DNA of 64,000 nucleotides from Actinokineospora diospyrosa (GTDB taxonomy: Bacteria > Actinomycetota > Actinomycetes > Mycobacteriales > Pseudonocardiaceae): positions 1-64,000 of the forward strand of contig NZ_JAMTCO010000007.1 of NCBI RefSeq assembly GCF_024171925.1, in the 5' to 3' direction. Each line of letters starts with the position of its first letter. Within the stretch, counting starts at the first letter, position 1. Made by a program: the position numbers and the translations under genes. Below, in pieces: positions 27,138 through 36,073 of this stretch. The notes beneath the pieces are model-generated. The model searched no databases. It was not told where the DNA came from and saw nothing but the letters and a program-made list of their open reading frames with translations.

Positions 27138-27360
27138 CTGTCACCCATCCGGACCGGGTGGGCGGATCAGGGTCCAGTCAGGGTCGTCACCGATATCCGG
27201 ACTCTCAGGATCACGAGAGGCTACGCCTGTGAGTTGACCCGACGGGGGGACCACAGGACGACGCGGGAACAGGGTCGCGACGGCCACCCTTGTGGCTATC
27301 AAGCGGGGGACGCGCTGCGGGGGCAGGGCGCACACAGCATTCGCTCGAAGGAGAAGCACC

Positions 27361-28305
27361 ATGATCGAGGCAGTCGGCCTCACCAAGAGTTACGGCAAGA
27401 CGCTCGCCGTCGACAACCTGTCGTTCTCGGTCCCGACCGGGCGGGTGACCGGCTTCCTCGGTCCGAACGGCGCGGGCAAGTCGACCACGATGCGGATGAT
27501 CCTCGGGTTGGACACCCCGACCGGCGGATCGGCGCTCATCGACGGCAAGCGCTACCGGGACCTGCACCAGCCGCTGCGCACCGTCGGCGCGCTGCTGGAC
27601 GCCAAGTGGGTCCACCCCAACCGCTCCGCCCGCGCCCACCTGCAGTGGCTGGCGCGGTCCAACCAGCTCCCGGCCAAGCGCGTCGACGAGGTGCTGGAGA
27701 TCGTCGGTCTCACCGCCGTGGCGAACAAGCGCGCGGGCGGGTTCTCGCTCGGCATGTCCCAGCGGCTCGGCATCGCCGCCGCGCTGCTGGGCGACCCGCA
27801 GGTGCTGCTGTTCGACGAACCGGTCAACGGCTTGGACCCCGAGGGCATCCTCTGGATCCGCAAGTTCATGCACCGGCTCGCCGAGGAGGGCCGCACGGTC
27901 TTCGTCTCCAGCCACCTGCTGTCGGAGATGGCGCTCACCGCGCAGGAACTGGTGGTGATCGGTCGGGGCAAGCTGATCTCGCAGAGCTCCACTGAGGACT
28001 TCGTCGCCCAGGCGACCGAGAACACCGTGCGCGTGCGCGGCCCGCAGCTCGCCGCGTTGCGCTCGGCGCTGGGCCAGGCCGGGGTGTCCATCCGGGACGA
28101 GGGCGAGAGCCTGGTCGTGTCCGGGATGGACTGCGCCGACATCGGCGAGCTCGCCGCGCGCACGCAGACCGTGCTGCACGAGCTCAGCCCGCAGCGCGGT
28201 TCGCTCGAAGAGGCGTTCATGCAGCTGACCGGCGACTCCGTCGAGTACCACACCGAGATCGCCGACGGCCCCACCCCGGCGACCCTCGTGCCCGCGGGGA
28301 AGTGA
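27361..28305 (+). CDS. ABC transporter ATP-binding protein (first copy)
   Basis: 314 residues from an ATG with GAAGGAG upstream. Walker A is GFLGPNGAGKSTTM (~33-46), signature FSLGMSQRLG (variant LGMSQ), Walker B VLLFDEPVNGLD (~149-160), and the H-loop SSHLLSE. A C-terminal extension of ~100 residues resembles other drug/lantibiotic exporter ATPases. It powers the membrane proteins encoded immediately downstream. It is a close paralogue of the ATPase at 29940, including identical stretches such as LLDAKWVHPNRSARAHL. Confidence 0.93.
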   Translation: MIEAVGLTKSYGKTLAVDNLSFSVPTGRVTGFLGPNGAGKSTTMRMILGLDTPTGGSALIDGKRYRDLHQPLRTVGALLDAKWVHPNRSARAHLQWLARSNQLPAKRVDEVLEIVGLTAVANKRAGGFSLGMSQRLGIAAALLGDPQVLLFDEPVNGLDPEGILWIRKFMHRLAEEGRTVFVSSHLLSEMALTAQELVVIGRGKLISQSSTEDFVAQATENTVRVRGPQLAALRSALGQAGVSIRDEGESLVVSGMDCADIGELAARTQTVLHELSPQRGSLEEAFMQLTGDSVEYHTEIADGPTPATLVPAGK

Positions 28306-28309
28306 CGAC

Positions 28310-29077
28310 ATGACCCTGCTCGCTGTCGAACGGATCAAGCTCTTCACCACCCGCTCGCCGTGGTGGTGCACCCTCATCGCCCTGGTGCTGACCATCGGCT
28401 TCGGCGCGCTGATGGCGGGCACCTCCGAGGAGAACATCGCGCCGCTCACCATCGCCGCCACCCAGTTCGGCTACACCTTCGGGCTGGTCGTGGTGATGGT
28501 GATGGCCGCGCTGGCGATCACCACCGAGTACCGCTTCTCCACCATCCGGGCCACCTTCCTCGCCGTGCCCAACCGGCCGACCGCGCTCATCGCCAAGGCG
28601 ACCGTGGTCGCGGTGCTGGCCGCGATCGTCGGTGAGATCGCCGCGTTCGGTTCCTGGGGGATCGCGCGCCTGATGAAGCCCAACGTCGACCTGGCGATCA
28701 ACACCGCCTACGAGTGGCGCGCGGTGGCGGGCGTCGGCCTGGTCTACGGCATCTCCGCGGTCGTCGCGGTCGCCGTCGGTGTGCTGCTGCGGCACTCCGC
28801 GGGCGCCATCGCGGTGCTGCTGATCTGGAACCAGCTGGTCGAGCCGCTGGTGCAGCTCATCCCCAAGGTCGGCGACGACATCCACAAGTGGCTGCCGTTC
28901 AACGTGGCCAACAAGCTGATCACCGGCAACCCGGACCCGTCCACGCGCGACGTGCTGCAGGGCCCGCCGCCCTCGGACGCGGTGCTCGGCCCGTGGCCCG
29001 CGCTGGCCGCCTTCGCGGGCTTCGCCGTGGTGCTGTTCGGCATCGCGCTCGTGGTCGCCAACCGGAGGGACGCCTGA
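28310..29077 (+). CDS. ABC transporter permease, copy 1
   Basis: 255 residues with six predicted transmembrane helices of the ABC2 type. It starts RIKLFTTRSPWWC, a signature shared by all three permeases of this locus. It begins four bases after the ATPase stop and overlaps the next permease as TGATG, so the three form one operon. The substrate is unknown; this family commonly exports peptides, lipids or drugs. Confidence 0.9.
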   Translation: MTLLAVERIKLFTTRSPWWCTLIALVLTIGFGALMAGTSEENIAPLTIAATQFGYTFGLVVVMVMAALAITTEYRFSTIRATFLAVPNRPTALIAKATVVAVLAAIVGEIAAFGSWGIARLMKPNVDLAINTAYEWRAVAGVGLVYGISAVVAVAVGVLLRHSAGAIAVLLIWNQLVEPLVQLIPKVGDDIHKWLPFNVANKLITGNPDPSTRDVLQGPPPSDAVLGPWPALAAFAGFAVVLFGIALVVANRRDA

Positions 29078-29805
29078 TGACCACCCTGCTCGCGACCGAG
29101 CGGATCAAGCTGTTCACCACCCGCTCGCCGTGGTGGTCGGCGTTCCTGGCGCTCGGCCTCACCATCGGCTTCGCCGGTCTCGTCGCGCTCAACCACAACG
29201 GCGGCCCGCTGCGCGTGGAGCACAGCCAGTTCGGCATCCAGTTCGGCCTGATGGTCGTCACCGTGATGGCGGCGCTGGCGATCACCACCGAATACCGCTT
29301 CGCCACCATCCGGGCCACCTTCCAGGCGGTGCCCAACCGCACCTCGGCGCTGCTGGCCAAGACCACCGTGGTCGCCGTGCTCGCCGCGGTCATCGGTGAG
29401 GTCGCCGCGTTCGGTTCGTGGGCCACGGTCAAGGTCATCGACGGCGGCGGTCCGGAGTTGGCGATCACGACCGGCGCGGACTGGCGGATGGTCGCCGGGG
29501 CAGGCCTGGTGTTCGGCATCGCCGCGGTCATCGCGGTCGCGGTCGGCACGCTGGTCCGCCAGTCGGCAGGCGCGATCTCGATCCTGCTCATCTGGCCGCT
29601 GCTGGTGGAGAACCTGGTGCAGTTGATCCCCGGGGCAGGCGACGACATCCACAACTGGATGCCGTTCACCGTGGCGGGTCGGTTCCTCAACGGGCCGGGC
29701 CCGGACGCGCCGCTGAGCGCGTGGGGCTCGCTGTTCTACTTCGCGGCCGTCGCCGCGGTCCTGCTGCTGGCCGCCATCACCGCGGTCAACAAGCGCGACG
29801 CCTGA
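29077..29805 (+). CDS. ABC transporter permease, copy 2
   Basis: 242 residues, ABC2-type, with six helices. It is very similar to the preceding gene (RIKLFTTRSPWW, ALAITTEYRF, TIRATF, AVPNR), so a tandem duplication is clear. The start overlaps the previous stop by one base (TGATG). It may form a heterodimeric membrane part with copy 1, driven by the ATPase at 27361. Confidence 0.9.
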   Translation: MTTLLATERIKLFTTRSPWWSAFLALGLTIGFAGLVALNHNGGPLRVEHSQFGIQFGLMVVTVMAALAITTEYRFATIRATFQAVPNRTSALLAKTTVVAVLAAVIGEVAAFGSWATVKVIDGGGPELAITTGADWRMVAGAGLVFGIAAVIAVAVGTLVRQSAGAISILLIWPLLVENLVQLIPGAGDDIHNWMPFTVAGRFLNGPGPDAPLSAWGSLFYFAAVAAVLLLAAITAVNKRDA

Positions 29806-29939
29806 CACAGCGGTCCGCCGGTCATTCGGGGAGCGGCGGACCACACCGGGGAACGGGAGCCCTGGTCACCTCGGGGGAGGGGACCAGGGCTCCCGCACGC
29901 GGCCTGCGGGCGCGGGGGATTGGTGCCAAGATCGGGCCC

Positions 29940-30878
29940 ATGATCGAGGCGACCGGGCTGACGAAGCACTACGGCCGCACCGTCGCGGTCGACAACTTGT
30001 CGTTCACCGTCGGCGAGGGCCGGGTGACCGGGTTCCTCGGCCCGAACGGCGCGGGCAAGTCGACGACGATGCGGATGATCCTCGGCCTCGACAGCCCAAC
30101 CTCCGGTGACGTGCGCATCGACGGTCAGCACTACCGCGACCTGCACCAGCCGCTGCGCACCGTCGGCGCCCTGCTGGACGCCAAGTGGGTCCACCCCAAC
30201 CGATCCGCGCGCGCCCACCTGCGCTGGCTGGCCGCCGCGACCAAGCTGCCGCGGTCGCGGATCGACCAGGTGCTCGACCTGGTCGGGCTCGGCGCGGTGG
30301 CCAACAAGAACGCGGGCGGCTTCTCCCTCGGCATGTCCCAGCGGCTCGGCATCGCCGCCGCGCTGCTCGGTGACCCGCGGGTGCTGCTGTTCGACGAGCC
30401 GGTCAACGGGCTCGACCCCGAGGGCATCCTCTGGATCCGCAAGTTCATGCACCAGCTGGCCGACGAGGGCCGCACCGTCTTCGTCTCCAGCCACCTGCTC
30501 TCGGAGATGGCCCAGACCGCGCAGGACCTCGTGGTGATCGGCCGGGGCAAGCTGATCTACCAGGGCACCGTGGACGAGTTCATCGCCAACGCCACCGAGA
30601 GCACCGTGCTGGTGCGCAGTCCAACGCTGGAGAAGCTGGGCGAGCACCTGCTCGCGGCTGGCGCGGGCATCAGCGACGACGGCGACGCGCTCCGGGTGTC
30701 CGGAATGGACAGTGCGGCGATCGGCGAGCTCGCCGCGACCCGCCAGATCGTGCTGCACGAGCTGAGCCCGCAGGTCGGTTCGCTCGAGCAGGCGTTCATC
30801 CACCTGACCGGCGACACCGTCGAGTACCGGACCGAAGAACCGGCGCTGGGCACCACCGAGGAGGGGCCGACGGCATGA
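29940..30878 (+). CDS. ABC transporter ATP-binding protein (second copy)
   Basis: 312 residues. All ATPase motifs are present in the same positions as in the first copy (GPNGAGKSTTM, FSLGMSQRLG, VLLFDEPVNGLDPEGILW, SSHLLSEM). The ATG was chosen by alignment with the paralogue. A 134-base gap separates it from the previous permease, so it may have its own promoter. The stop overlaps the next permease start (ATGA). Confidence 0.93.
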   Translation: MIEATGLTKHYGRTVAVDNLSFTVGEGRVTGFLGPNGAGKSTTMRMILGLDSPTSGDVRIDGQHYRDLHQPLRTVGALLDAKWVHPNRSARAHLRWLAAATKLPRSRIDQVLDLVGLGAVANKNAGGFSLGMSQRLGIAAALLGDPRVLLFDEPVNGLDPEGILWIRKFMHQLADEGRTVFVSSHLLSEMAQTAQDLVVIGRGKLIYQGTVDEFIANATESTVLVRSPTLEKLGEHLLAAGAGISDDGDALRVSGMDSAAIGELAATRQIVLHELSPQVGSLEQAFIHLTGDTVEYRTEEPALGTTEEGPTA

Positions 30879-31621
30879 GCCTGCTGGAAGCGGAGCGGAT
30901 CAAGCTGTTCACCACCCGCTCGCCGTGGTGGTGCGGGCTGCTGGCGATCGCGCTGCCGGTCGGGCTCACCGCGCTGATCGCCACCCAGGCGGGCGGCCCG
31001 GGGTCGGCCGAGTTCGACGCCAGCGCGACCCAGCTGCTCACCGGGCTCGGCCGCTCGGTGGTGATGGTGATGGCGGCGCTGTCGATCACCAGCGAGTACC
31101 GCTTCGGCACCATCCGGGCCACCTTCCAAGCCGTGCCCAACCGCACCTCGGCGCTGCTGGCCAAGACCGCGGTGACCGCGGTCCCCGCCGCGCTCATCGG
31201 CGCCGTCGTCGGCTTCGGCAGCTGGGCGGTGTTCCGGCTGATCCACCCGGATCCGGCGCTGGCACTGGATTCCGCGGCCGACTGGCGCGCGGTGGCAGGC
31301 CAGCCGCTGGTGTTCGCGATCACCGCGGTGCTCTCGCTCGGCGTCGGGATCCTGATCCGCCAGACCGCGGGTGCCGTCGCCGTGCTGCTGGTGTACTCGC
31401 TGCTGGTGGAGGGCCTGGTCGGGCTGATCCCGAAGATCGGCGACGACATCCAGCACTGGATGCCGTTCTTCGCCGCGGACCGGTTCATCGGCGTGCAGGC
31501 CGACGCCCCGGGCCTGCAGGAGCTGCCGCTCGGCCCGTGGGGCTACCTGGCCTACTTCGCCGCCATCGCGGTCGCCGTGCTGGCCGCCGGAATCTTGTCG
31601 GCTGGACGCCGCGACGCCTGA
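30875..31621 (+). CDS. ABC transporter permease, copy 3
   Basis: 248 residues, ABC2-type, with six helices. It begins SLLEAERIKLFTTRSPWWC, like the two other permeases, and shares ITSEYRFGTIRATFQAVPNR with copy 2. Coupled by ATGA to the second ATPase. With a single permease this half could act as a homodimer. From 31622 to 31784 no gene is seen. Confidence 0.9.
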   Translation: MSLLEAERIKLFTTRSPWWCGLLAIALPVGLTALIATQAGGPGSAEFDASATQLLTGLGRSVVMVMAALSITSEYRFGTIRATFQAVPNRTSALLAKTAVTAVPAALIGAVVGFGSWAVFRLIHPDPALALDSAADWRAVAGQPLVFAITAVLSLGVGILIRQTAGAVAVLLVYSLLVEGLVGLIPKIGDDIQHWMPFFAADRFIGVQADAPGLQELPLGPWGYLAYFAAIAVAVLAAGILSAGRRDA

Positions 31622-31784: not shown

Positions 31785-32420
31785 TTGACGGTGCTTGACG
31801 CCAGCACGGACGACAGCCCGAACGGCAACGCGAGCGGCAGCGCGGCACAGCGGCGGCCCCCGGTGCCCGCCCAACGCGGCCTGCACGTCGAACCGATGAT
31901 CGGCCTGGAGTGGTCGGAGGCGCTGGAGCAACCCGGCGGACCACCGGCGACGACACCGGCCGACGCGCGCCGGGGGTGGGTGCACCGCGCGCCGGAACCC
32001 CAGGTCATCGCGCTCTACCGGGCCGTTGTCGCCGCCGACCCGGCGTTACCCGCGCCGTGGTGGCTGCGCGCGGTCGCCGCCGGTGAGCTCACCTCCCGCC
32101 GGGAGGGGTTCGCGGTGGAGGACCGGGTGGCGAAGCTGCTGGACGCCAGACCGGGCTGGGTCTTCGTCCCGTGGGGCGTCGACGGCGACTCCGGGTACTG
32201 GGAGTACATGCCGTCCGAGCGCGCGCTGGCCGAACCGGGGATGCCGACCACGCTGGCGCACACGCACCGGCACCCGGGCTGGATCGACGTGATCCAGGTG
32301 CACGCGGGCCAGGCACCGCCGTCGATCCGGGTGCACGGTCTCGCCGACCTGCGCGCGAACCTGTCCCGACTGGAGTCCCTGCGACCGGCCAACCGGCCGG
32401 ATGGCACCCTGGGCGGGTGA
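31785..32420 (+). CDS. Hypothetical protein cotranscribed with trmB
   Basis: 211 residues from a TTG preceded by GGAGGTGG. It has a low-complexity N-terminus (~50 residues). A folded part follows with PEPQVIALYRAVVAADP, PWWLRAVAAGELTSRREGF, GWVFVPWGVDGDSGYWEYM and HTHRHPGWIDVIQVHAG. No membrane segment or signal peptide. No known family was recognised. Its stop overlaps the trmB start (GTGA), so the two proteins are made together, which hints at an RNA-related or house-keeping role but does not prove it. Confidence 0.65.
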   Translation: MTVLDASTDDSPNGNASGSAAQRRPPVPAQRGLHVEPMIGLEWSEALEQPGGPPATTPADARRGWVHRAPEPQVIALYRAVVAADPALPAPWWLRAVAAGELTSRREGFAVEDRVAKLLDARPGWVFVPWGVDGDSGYWEYMPSERALAEPGMPTTLAHTHRHPGWIDVIQVHAGQAPPSIRVHGLADLRANLSRLESLRPANRPDGTLGG

Positions 32421-33121
32421 CACCGACCGACCAGGTGCCCCGCAAGCGCACCATCGTCAGCTTCGTCAACCGCAACGGCCGGATGACGGTGGGGCAAGCC
32501 CGCGCCTGGGAGCGGTCCTGGCCCGAGCTGGGCAAGCACGTCGCCGAGCTGCCGAGCGGCCCGCTGGACGCGACGAGCTGGTTCGGCCGCGAAGCGCCCG
32601 TGCTGCTGGAGATCGGCTCCGGCATGGGCGAGACGACCTCGCAGCTCGCGCAGGCCGCGCCGGAGCTCAACTACCTGGCGATCGACGTCTACGAGCCGGG
32701 CCTCGCGCAGCTGATCCTGCGCGCGGAGGCCATGGAGCTGGCCAACCTGCGGATGTTGCGCGGCGACGCCGTCGTGCTGCTGACCGAGCACATCGCCGCG
32801 GGCTCGCTCTCGGCGGTGCGGATCTTCTTCCCCGACCCGTGGCCCAAGAAGAAGCACCACAAGCGGCGGTTGGTGCAGCCGGAGTTCATCTCCCTGATCG
32901 CCGAGCGGCTGGCCCCCGGCGGCACGGTGCACCTGGCGACCGACTGGGCCGAGTACGCCGACCAGATGCTCGAGGTGCTCTCCGGGGAGCCGCTGCTGCG
33001 CAACCGGTTCGACGGCTGGGCGCCGCGGCCGGACTGGCGCCCGGTCACGAAGTTCGAGGCCAGGGCCCGGGAAGAGGGGCGAATCAGTCGCGACCTCATC
33101 TTCGAACGAGTGAATGACTAA
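32417..33121 (+). CDS. trmB: tRNA (guanine-N7-)-methyltransferase
   Basis: 234 residues from a GTG overlapping the upstream stop. It methylates G46 of tRNA using S-adenosylmethionine. SAM motif I is LLEIGSGMGETT (~57-68), followed by AIDVYEPGLAQ. The family hallmark IFFPDPWPKKKHHKRRLVQP lies near 136-155. The C-terminal substrate loop is ATDWAEYADQM. Length is normal for the family. It is followed 79 bases later, on the same strand, by the NOS-like gene, which may be read from the same transcript. Confidence 0.95.
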   Translation: MTPTDQVPRKRTIVSFVNRNGRMTVGQARAWERSWPELGKHVAELPSGPLDATSWFGREAPVLLEIGSGMGETTSQLAQAAPELNYLAIDVYEPGLAQLILRAEAMELANLRMLRGDAVVLLTEHIAAGSLSAVRIFFPDPWPKKKHHKRRLVQPEFISLIAERLAPGGTVHLATDWAEYADQMLEVLSGEPLLRNRFDGWAPRPDWRPVTKFEARAREEGRISRDLIFERVND

Positions 33122-33200: not shown

Positions 33201-34373
33201 GTGACCGCCCTGCGCGACGAGCCCGCCCCGACCGCTTCCCGCACCACCGCGCCGACGCCGCTCACCGCGCCCGCCCCACCGAGTCCGGTCGCCGCCTTCA
33301 CCGGGTCCGTGCCCAACCCGCTGGCGCCCACCGTGATCACCACCCCGGTGGCGCCGCCGGACCAAGGGCCGCCGAACCAGGTGCTGCCGAACCAGGTGCC
33401 CGCGGCCCGGTCGAAGGCGACGCCGCTCTACGACGCGGCTGAGCGGTTCCTGCGCGCCTTCCACGAGGCCCGGCCCAAGGCGGGTCCGATCGACGCGCGG
33501 CTGGCCAAGGTCCGCGCCGAGATCGCCGCGACCTGCACCTACCGGCACACCCCGGCCGAACTCGCCTACGGCGCCCGGCTCGCGTTGCGCGAGAGCGGCT
33601 GGTGCCCGGAGAGCATCCCCTGGCGCGGCCTGCTGGTCCGCGACCTGCGCGAGGTGCGCGCCGCGGCGGACGTCGCCGCCGAGTGCGTGCGGCACCTGCG
33701 GATGGCGGCCGGTGGCGGCACGATCCGCCCGGTCGTCAGCGTGTTCGCGCCGGACTCGCCGTGGCGCCCCGGCCCGCGCATCCGCAACGACCAGTTGGTC
33801 CGCTACGCGGGCTACCGCGAACCGTCCCATGTGCTCGGTGACCGCAGGTACGTCGACTTCACCACCGGCGTCTGCAAACTCGGCTGGCGCCCGCCGACCC
33901 CGCGCGGCCGGTTCGACCTGCTGCCGCTGGTGGTCGAGTCCGGCACCGACGGCGTGCGGCTGTTCCCGATCCCGCGCGACGCCGTGCTGGAAGTCCGGTT
34001 GACGCACCCGGAACTGCCGTGGTTCGCCGAGTTGGGCCTGCGCTGGCACGCGGTGCCGGTCATCGCCAACACCCGGCTGCACATCGGCGGCATCGACTAC
34101 CCGGCCGCGCCTTACAACGGCGTCTACATCTGCCGCGCCATCGGGGAGGACGTGCTCGGCGAGGACGCCGCCTACGGACTGGCCACTGTGGTCGCCGAGC
34201 GGCTCGGGCTCGACACCTCCCGCGAGCGCACCCTCTGGCGCGACCGCGCGGCCCTCGAACTCAACCGCGCGGTCCTGCACTCGTTCGACAAGGCGGGCGT
34301 CAGCATCGAGCACTCGGCCGAGGTGTACCTGCCCGCGGGCGACCACCAGGACCGCCCGGCGTTCGTCCGCTAA
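33201..34373 (+). CDS. Divergent nitric-oxide-synthase oxygenase-like haem protein, C-terminally short
   Basis: 390 residues from a GTG. After a Pro/Thr-rich tail (1-72), residues ~75-372 align along their whole length with bacterial NOS oxygenase: HTPAELAYGARLALRESGWC, GTIRPVVSVFAP, NDQLVRYAGY, LGWRPP, RFDLLPLVV, LEVRLTHPELPWF, LRWHAVPVIAN, IGGIDYPAAPYNG, LWRDRAALELNRAVLHSFDK and AGVSI. Cys135 sits at the haem-thiolate position. However, the C-IGR that follows in NOS is CPES here, the proximal Trp six residues before the Cys is Leu129, and the arginine-binding segment NGWYMGTEIG is NGVYICRAIG, so Trp becomes Val308 and Glu becomes Ala313. The ~65 C-terminal residues that bind pterin and form the dimer are absent. 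It is probably haem-binding but not an ordinary arginine-dependent NO synthase. Confidence 0.87.
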   Translation: MTALRDEPAPTASRTTAPTPLTAPAPPSPVAAFTGSVPNPLAPTVITTPVAPPDQGPPNQVLPNQVPAARSKATPLYDAAERFLRAFHEARPKAGPIDARLAKVRAEIAATCTYRHTPAELAYGARLALRESGWCPESIPWRGLLVRDLREVRAAADVAAECVRHLRMAAGGGTIRPVVSVFAPDSPWRPGPRIRNDQLVRYAGYREPSHVLGDRRYVDFTTGVCKLGWRPPTPRGRFDLLPLVVESGTDGVRLFPIPRDAVLEVRLTHPELPWFAELGLRWHAVPVIANTRLHIGGIDYPAAPYNGVYICRAIGEDVLGEDAAYGLATVVAERLGLDTSRERTLWRDRAALELNRAVLHSFDKAGVSIEHSAEVYLPAGDHQDRPAFVR

Positions 34374-36073
34374 GCGGTCGGCACCGGTTCCCGTTCCGCC
34401 GCCGCGTCAGCGGGCGGCGGCGGGGGCGAGGACTTCCTCAACCGGATGACCACCTTGTCCGGCGCGCCCTCGAGCACACCACCGGCCGGGTCGTCGCCGG
34501 GGAAGCGGCGGGCCAGGTCGCGCTCCGGGTGGTAGATCTCGCGGATGATCACCACGCAGATGAGCACCACCGCGATGTCGCGCAGCACGACCGTGCCGAG
34601 GAACCACTCCTCCGGCAGGCCCTTGTTGCTCTCGCCGAGGTAGTACATCATCCGCGGCGCCCAGACCAGGGCGTCGATGGTCATCCAGGCGAGCAGCAAC
34701 TTCCACCTGGGCAGCGCGAGGATCGCCAGCGGGACCAGCCACAGGCTGTACTGCGGGCTCCAGACCTTGTTGGTCAGCAGGAACGCGGCCACCACCAGGA
34801 ACGACAGCTGCGCGACCCGCGGCCGGGTCTTGGCGTGCAGGCCGATGAACGCGATGCCCGCGCAGCACGCCACGAACAGCACGGCGCTGACCAGGTTCAG
34901 CCAGGTCGGCGACTCGCCGAAGGGCACCTGGCCGTCGAAGCCCTCCCAGCCGGTGAACTTCATCAGCACGTTGTAGATCGAGTCCGGGTCCGCGCCGCGT
35001 TCGGAGTTGCGCCGGAAGAACTCCCACCAGCCCTGCCGGTACTGCTCCGGGATGATCAACCAGGCGTTGCAGATCGCCCACGTGAACGCGGCCAGACCGG
35101 CGGTGTTCCACCAGTCGCGCATCCGGCCCGAGCGCAGGCACAGGATCAGCAGCGGACCGAGCAGGAACGCCGGGTAGAGCTTCGCCGCGGCGCCGAGGCC
35201 GATGAGGATGCCTGCCACCCCGGTGCGCTTGCGCGACCACGCCAGCAGCGCGGCGGCGGCGAACGCGGTGGCCAGGGTGTCGAAGTTGGTGAACGCGTGC
35301 ACCGCGACCAGCGGGGACAACGCGATGAAGGCGACGTCCCACGGTCTATGTCGGGCCGTTCGACCCGTGGTCCAGATGGTGATCAGCCACGCGATGGACA
35401 GCCACAGCGCGCTGATCGTGAAGTAGATGACCACCGGCAGCGCCGTCGGCAACCACCCCTTGGCGGCGACCTCCATGTAGCCGTGGGTCAGCTTGGCGTT
35501 GACCCACTGGAACATGCCGGTGAGCACCGGGTACTCCATGTACCGCAGCTGCTGGGTCGGCTTGCCCTCGTCGTCGTACCAGGACGTCTTGTAGGGGAAG
35601 GTGTCCGGTTTGTCCAACCGCTCAGCGGTGTAGAGCGGGACGATGTCCGAGTAGCACATCGCCACGAACGGGCGGTTCGCCCGCCAGTCCAGCTCCAGCT
35701 TGTCGCCGGAGTTGTACTGCTGCACGCAGGCGGCCTTGGTGAACCACCCGAGCGCGAGCCCGACCACGGCGAGCAGCAGCGCCACCCGCAGCGGGGTCCA
35801 GAACCAGTGCCTGCCGACCACGGCGTGCCTGCCGAGCGGCCCGCCGAGCGGCCCGGTCGCCCCCCTGCCGATCGACTCCGACCAGGACGGGCGCACCCGC
35901 TCCTGCTCACTGAGCGTCGCGGTGTCGGCGACCTGGCCGACCCCGGGTACGACCACGACCGGGGACTCGTCCGCAACCGGGGAGTCACCCGCCACCGGGG
36001 ACCCGGCCGACGGCTCGGTCCCGATCTCAACCGGTCGCTCGGCCTCGTCTGGCCGCTCTGGATCGCCTGGCAC
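34370..36073 (-). CDS. GT87-type integral membrane glycosyltransferase (Rv0051-like)
   Basis: 567 residues with about 11-12 transmembrane helices between a Pro/Glu-rich cytoplasmic N-terminus (~90 residues) and a polar tail. Features of polyprenyl-phosphate-dependent GT-C enzymes are visible: CYSDIVPLYTAERLD with the acidic pair in the first loop, MEYPVLTG, FTNFDTLATAF, GLGAAAKLYPAFLLGPLL and LLTNKVWSPQYSLWLVP. It is expected to transfer mannose or a related sugar outside the membrane. Its place next to ponA corresponds to Rv0051 in M. tuberculosis. The 3' end overlaps the NOS-like gene by four bases. Confidence 0.87.
   Translation of the reverse strand: MPGDPERPDEAERPVEIGTEPSAGSPVAGDSPVADESPVVVVPGVGQVADTATLSEQERVRPSWSESIGRGATGPLGGPLGRHAVVGRHWFWTPLRVALLLAVVGLALGWFTKAACVQQYNSGDKLELDWRANRPFVAMCYSDIVPLYTAERLDKPDTFPYKTSWYDDEGKPTQQLRYMEYPVLTGMFQWVNAKLTHGYMEVAAKGWLPTALPVVIYFTISALWLSIAWLITIWTTGRTARHRPWDVAFIALSPLVAVHAFTNFDTLATAFAAAALLAWSRKRTGVAGILIGLGAAAKLYPAFLLGPLLILCLRSGRMRDWWNTAGLAAFTWAICNAWLIIPEQYRQGWWEFFRRNSERGADPDSIYNVLMKFTGWEGFDGQVPFGESPTWLNLVSAVLFVACCAGIAFIGLHAKTRPRVAQLSFLVVAAFLLTNKVWSPQYSLWLVPLAILALPRWKLLLAWMTIDALVWAPRMMYYLGESNKGLPEEWFLGTVVLRDIAVVLICVVIIREIYHPERDLARRFPGDDPAGGVLEGAPDKVVIRLRKSSPPPPPADAAAEREPVPTA

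Follow-up and report, generated by a model that had tools for sequence, protein, structure and literature searches.

A divergent nitric oxide synthase-like protein in Actinokineospora diospyrosa that keeps the haem cysteine position and lacks the guanidinium glutamate and the pterin/dimer segment

What does a nitric oxide synthase (NOS) oxygenase do once the parts that make NO from arginine are gone? The question is raised by a gene, here called NOSL, at 33201 to 34373 on the forward strand of a 64,000-nucleotide stretch of Actinokineospora diospyrosa DNA (contig NZ_JAMTCO010000007.1, positions 1 to 64,000; hereafter the window). A first-pass annotation of the letters alone had read its product as a NOS-oxygenase homologue that keeps the haem Cys, has lost the arginine-binding residues and the C-terminal part, and has been re-tasked. 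On balance we consider it probable, if only just, that the product is a NOS-derived haem-thiolate protein which no longer makes NO from arginine and acts in haem ligand binding, redox or regulation. The homology itself is clear, as PF02898 (NO_synthase) matches the 390-residue protein with an E-value of 1.1e-93 and 314.5 bits, against a curated cut-off of 22.7 bits, with residues 75-370 covering positions 4-299 of the 362 in the profile. No NCBIfam model matches the protein. Its PDB sequence matches are NOS chains among those listed (the best 60 of 81), and the fold predicted for it is that of the NOS oxygenases, as in the PF02898 family. The GTG start is supported, since several relatives have VTALRDE or VTALRDD in the corresponding place, and the stretch ahead of the NOS domain differs in length among orthologues. 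The protein is laid out as follows.

33201..34373, + strand: divergent NOS-oxygenase paralogue (NOSL), 390 residues, GTG start, frame intact
33201..33425, + strand: variable Pro/Thr/Ala-rich N-terminal stretch, residues 1-75, ahead of the NOS domain (the Pfam match begins at residue 75)
33585..33605, + strand: proximal haem segment LRESGWC, with Leu129, Trp134 and Cys135 (thiolate ligand position), from alignment
33783..33803, + strand: RNDQLVR segment, with Gln198 and Arg201 retained, and Arg195, from alignment
34113..34154, + strand: distal segment YNGVYICRAIGEDV, in which Val308, Cys311, Arg312, Ala313, Asp317 and Val318 replace Trp, Gly, Thr, Glu, Arg and Asn
34308..34352, + strand: EHS and a 12-residue linker, where canonical NOS has DHH and 48 residues with the pterin/dimer Trp, Trp, Phe and His, from alignment and structural alignment
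34353..34364, + strand: RPAF (residues 385-388), retained terminal strand, counterpart of canonical RPEF

To read the active site, we aligned 74 distinct NOS-like proteins, some species being represented twice, and split them on the proximal Trp into 28 canonical and 46 divergent copies; a tree built without the pocket columns recovered the same split. Pocket equivalences are those of the sequence alignment only, and the mouse inducible NOS (iNOS) numbers that go with them (188, 193, 371, Trp366/Glu371, Gln257 and Arg260) are those we take to belong to the aligned positions. On the proximal side, Cys135 stands where all 28 canonical copies have the Cys, Leu129 where all 28 have Trp, and Trp134, directly before the Cys, where the canonical residue is Arg. 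On the distal side, Ala313 occupies the guanidinium position, which is Glu in 28/28 canonical copies, and Val308 is aligned with Trp in 27 and Tyr in one; Asp317 and Val318 replace an Arg and an Asn that are likewise present in all 28. Arg195 is Trp in 22 of the 28. Gln198 and Arg201, the equivalents of Gln257 and Arg260, are both retained. The first-pass annotation had thus numbered Cys135, Leu129, Val308 and Ala313 correctly, and its claim that this protein has lost substrate and pterin residues is borne out.

These replacements fall on parts with described roles in NOS. Glu592 of neuronal NOS (nNOS) holds the guanidine (PMC6120233), the thiolate is hydrogen-bonded by a Trp (PMC4304226), and the centre of the dimer interface is formed by the helical lariats and tetrahydrobiopterin (PMC12922734), each as given in part of the source cited. 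As the guanidinium Glu, the thiolate-bonding Trp and the pterin/dimer segment are all gone, NO from arginine is not expected, and, judging from its residues, the window's protein is very probably not an NO synthase. With the NOS oxygenases of B. subtilis and Geobacillus it has in common the predicted fold, the order of segments, the Cys ligand, the Gln and Arg of QLVR and the final PxF strand, but it is without their proximal Trp, guanidinium Glu, following Arg and Asn, and aromatic pterin/dimer segment. The genome's own canonical NOS (contig C2, loci L001 and L027), which is 58% identical to NOSL over 305 aligned positions, differs in the same way, carrying WRNSARCVGR, NGWYLGTEIGARN and the DWSWIVPP...FHRYY segment. 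One could argue that the protein is still an NO synthase, or forms N-hydroxyarginine, with a relaxed pocket, as it is 54-60% identical to the canonical copies of its family and keeps Gln198 and Arg201, and as most rows of one divergent type (type B, below) retain both the Glu and the Trp. We nonetheless regard this as very improbable for the window's protein, which lacks the Glu, the following Arg and Asn, the proximal Trp and the entire pterin/dimer segment.

How the pterin/dimer segment was lost can be read from the C-terminal region. The first-pass annotation had described the C-terminal residues as missing; the segment is indeed gone and the tail after RPAF is cut off, yet that tail is the only part truly removed from the end. 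The distance from DHH to PxF is 48 residues in 27 of the 28 canonical copies and 49 in the remaining one, as compared with 12 in the window's protein, and the divergent copies fall into three grades of 26, 18-19 and 12 residues. The last PxF strand persists in them, as RPAF here, and the final residues of the predicted model align structurally past the pterin segment of endothelial NOS (eNOS). A simple C-terminal truncation was consequently rejected in favour of an internal excision. By eye, the tail of type-B copies after the RPxF strand is similar to canonical tails (L096 compared with L076).

Are these changes peculiar to one gene? In the 46 divergent copies, the proximal Trp is gone throughout (Leu in 42, Met in 2, Val in 2), the Trp directly before the Cys is found in 42, and the columns of the pterin/dimer Trp, Trp, Phe and His are empty in all. 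The thiolate-position Cys is present in 45 rows, the other (L087) having Tyr, and further pocket positions are similarly kept: Pro286 in 45, Gln198 in 44, Arg201 in 42 and Asn306 in 46. In 25 copies, including the window's, the guanidinium Glu has given way to another residue. When rows were sorted by text motif into types A, B and C (a sorting by which L033, L087 and L093 land in 'BC'), Val308 was found in 21 and Glu316 in all of the 22 type-A rows, so that the distal segment is altered yet conserved inside type A; among grades A, B and C, the distal pocket differs strongly. The marks of the clade are, by alignment, the loss of the proximal Trp, the change from Arg to Trp before the Cys and the absence of the pterin/dimer aromatics, and not the loss of Trp366/Glu371, which the earlier annotation had offered as a possible subfamily trait: homologues do not all keep Trp and Glu, but a Glu or an Asp is retained in 21 of the 46.

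A tree computed without the Cys and distal segments places all 46 divergent rows in one clade (support 100/98), nested among actinobacterial canonical NOS, although its inner branching is partly weak; with four further Cys-less rows added, the 50 rows again form one clade (100/97). The window's protein falls inside the clade characterized by SGWC and by linkage to a trmB-like methyltransferase gene (trmB, described below). Its genome has two NO_synthase matches, NOSL and a canonical 455-residue copy on another contig. All 16 genomes of the genus Actinokineospora have the divergent copy without stops (71-97% identity, self excluded), and 11 have a second match, canonical in every case. In the other five, the divergent copy stands alone, and as these genomes have no second match, the idea that NOSL is a heterodimer partner of canonical NOS is disfavoured.

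The ratio of non-synonymous to synonymous substitution rates (dN/dS), calculated by the Nei-Gojobori method on the NOS domain, is 0.081-0.453 for type A (13 pairs), 0.094-0.378 for types B and C (8 pairs) and 0.109-0.320 for canonical copies (7 pairs). Across the 27 divergent pairs for which it was computed, it always lies well under 1, and the divergent clade is under purifying selection. An explanation by decay after duplication, or by sequencing error, could draw on one genome (G019) whose copy at this locus is frame-broken and on type-A pairs reaching 0.45, but intact frames throughout the genus, these dN/dS values and a conserved locus make it hardly credible as a general account, and for the window's gene it is refuted. 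NOSL belongs instead to an old paralogous NOS-oxygenase branch, a distinct and conserved subfamily, as the first-pass annotation had proposed against decay or mis-sequencing.

As for the extent of this branch, a 60-residue diagnostic query scored at least 77 bits in 114 of 390 genomes of the family, in 15 of 46 genera; this count was made by hand from a listing, with the cut placed just above a 76.3-bit copy (G055) taken as canonical. Three more genomes (G252, G376 and G377, of two genera) belong by sequence but score below the cut. The surveyed family is equated with Pseudonocardiaceae by inference from identical sequences at named loci. Across the class, 54 of 394 genomes match at an E-value of 1e-6. 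Two belong to the genus; none of the remaining 52 scores above 65.7 bits, and all 18 of these whose sequences were compared are canonical. At the order level outside the family, eight matches were compared, four of them carrying WRNxxRCIGR and four a Gly in place of the Cys. In these surveys of family, order and class genomes, the clade thus appears so far to be restricted to Pseudonocardiaceae. In the literature, nothing on such a NOS subfamily was found among the matches listed, in a coverage largely outside subscription papers.

What, then, is the protein for? As it has lost the parts for making NO and has been preserved by selection, it probably has a different, haem-based job. We infer from the alignment that haem is bound through Cys135. 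The haem would be held by this Cys in a monomer or a loose dimer without pterin, and the altered pocket (Val308, Cys311, Arg312, Glu316 and Asp317) would bind another small ligand, such as NO, CO, O2 or a non-arginine metabolite, because the two-step arginine chemistry has no pterin to draw on and the guanidinium has no Glu to hold it. The protein's role would then be one of haem ligand binding, redox function or regulation, and not of NO synthesis. Taken separately, a haem-based ligand or redox role of the window's protein is a plausible proposition that stops a little short of probable. The re-tasked haem-thiolate protein of the first-pass annotation stands insofar as the subfamily is distinct, conserved and nearly always has the Cys, but not as a universal rule, since a Cys-less orthologue is also under purifying selection.

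A haem-thiolate oxygenase or peroxygenase could be built from the same residues, with the arginine pocket rebuilt for a new small-molecule substrate and the pterin dispensed with, in the manner of a cytochrome P450. Retention of the Cys in 45 of the 46 rows, with loss of the proximal Trp in all of them, should make the haem more P450-like, and the altered but conserved distal segment of type A would suit such a new substrate. However, neither biosynthetic nor redox genes belong to the conserved context in the loci examined, the distal pocket varies greatly among the grades, and the Cys is lost in one genus, so that we consider this explanation unlikely, though deserving of attention.

Several observations also weigh against the haem ligand-binding, redox or regulatory reading that we prefer. 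Because 21 of the divergent copies retain Glu or Asp where the guanidinium would be held, part of the clade may still bind arginine. Three type-A pairs (dN/dS of 0.365, 0.389 and 0.453) lie above every canonical pair, and constraint thus looks looser in some lineages. The trmB-linked copy of G019 (L115, 3334-5347) is split over two frames and is apparently decaying or mis-sequenced, and the copy of G350 lies in a frame of 223 residues. The loci examined showed neither a dedicated partner nor any sensor domain or regulator next to the gene. Lastly, in the genus g22 the trmB-linked orthologue has VY for WC in all five copies compared (five of eight genomes; L087, L106, L107, L108 and L128, one clade at 100/100), and these Cys-less copies are under strong selection, with dN/dS of 0.045-0.154 in six pairs. 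The conserved role may therefore not need thiolate haem everywhere. Their distal Pro segment is also changed, and two genomes, G212 and G216, additionally carry Cys-bearing copies elsewhere (L088 and L086, respectively).

The g22 orthologues bring in a haem-independent pseudoenzyme, in which the NOS fold is retained as a scaffold or protein-binding module. A separate NOS-derived lineage of the same order (family f13, genus g58) points the same way, with Gly at the Cys position in 4/4 copies compared and dN/dS of 0.12-0.18 in six pairs. The Gly-type copies (L110, L111, L112 and L113) read RGIGR or KGIGR and have an altered distal segment. As the divergent clade keeps its Cys, Pro286, Gln198, Arg201 and Asn306 almost throughout, we judge a haem-independent role for it to be distinctly unlikely. 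We tentatively and with some doubt picture a signalling or ligand-binding family that makes no NO, a natural pseudo-NOS lineage, in which stepwise excision of the pterin/dimer segment was followed by loss of the arginine clamp in one branch and, in one genus, even of the haem ligand, with purifying selection throughout; it is possibly a haem-based sensor that turned haem-free in one branch. A widespread clade with the NOS fold and nearly always the Cys, but without the pterin/dimer segment and, in one branch, without the arginine clamp, offers a natural experiment on which parts of NOS serve what, in proteins usually taken to have one function. It also follows from the bit-score count that Pfam 'nitric oxide synthase' calls in these genera can be wrong.

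The neighbourhood of NOSL is conserved as well, many soil actinobacteria keeping this NOS-like copy beside a tRNA-methylation gene. In the window, the adjoining genes are:

31785..32420, + strand: X31, conserved protein upstream of trmB, its stop overlapping the trmB GTG
32417..33121, + strand: trmB-like methyltransferase (Methyltransf_4), conserved upstream neighbour; Pfam E-value 6.1e-53, queried from 32396
34370..36073, - strand: GT87 glycosyltransferase, convergent neighbour, with a 4-bp overlap with NOSL

The name trmB is assigned from membership of Methyltransf_4 and is to that extent putative; trmB is a general tRNA gene. X31 has no Pfam match at an E-value of 0.1. Both adjoin the NOS-like gene in the window (31785-33121) and in 38 of 40 divergent loci examined, upstream and co-directional in 37 of the 38, the NOS-like gene being inverted in L101; the two loci without them are the extra copies L086 and L088. 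Beside canonical NOS, trmB was found in none of six loci from other genomes, within the flanks searched. X31 occurs in 295 of the 390 family genomes, a much larger number than have the divergent gene, and was therefore rejected as a dedicated partner and treated as a landmark. Six loci without a NOS-like gene (L120-L124 and L126) still have X31 and trmB, and no remnant of the gene was found in any of them within the 8-10 kb fetched. The setting differs from that of PtnF, TxtD, RufN and Laj3, actinobacterial NOS in biosynthetic clusters which, as told in part of PMC10831120, supply NO as a natural-product precursor; the conserved neighbours of NOSL are trmB and X31. The GT87 gene lies beside NOSL in few of the loci examined and is thus outside the conserved context. 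Upstream of X31 and trmB, at 27292-31621, the window has what we take to be repeated ATP-binding cassette (ABC) transporter genes, two ATPases and three related permeases. In a locus comparison in which the ABC29 query included sequence upstream of the gene, genes related to this set occur at many homologous loci.
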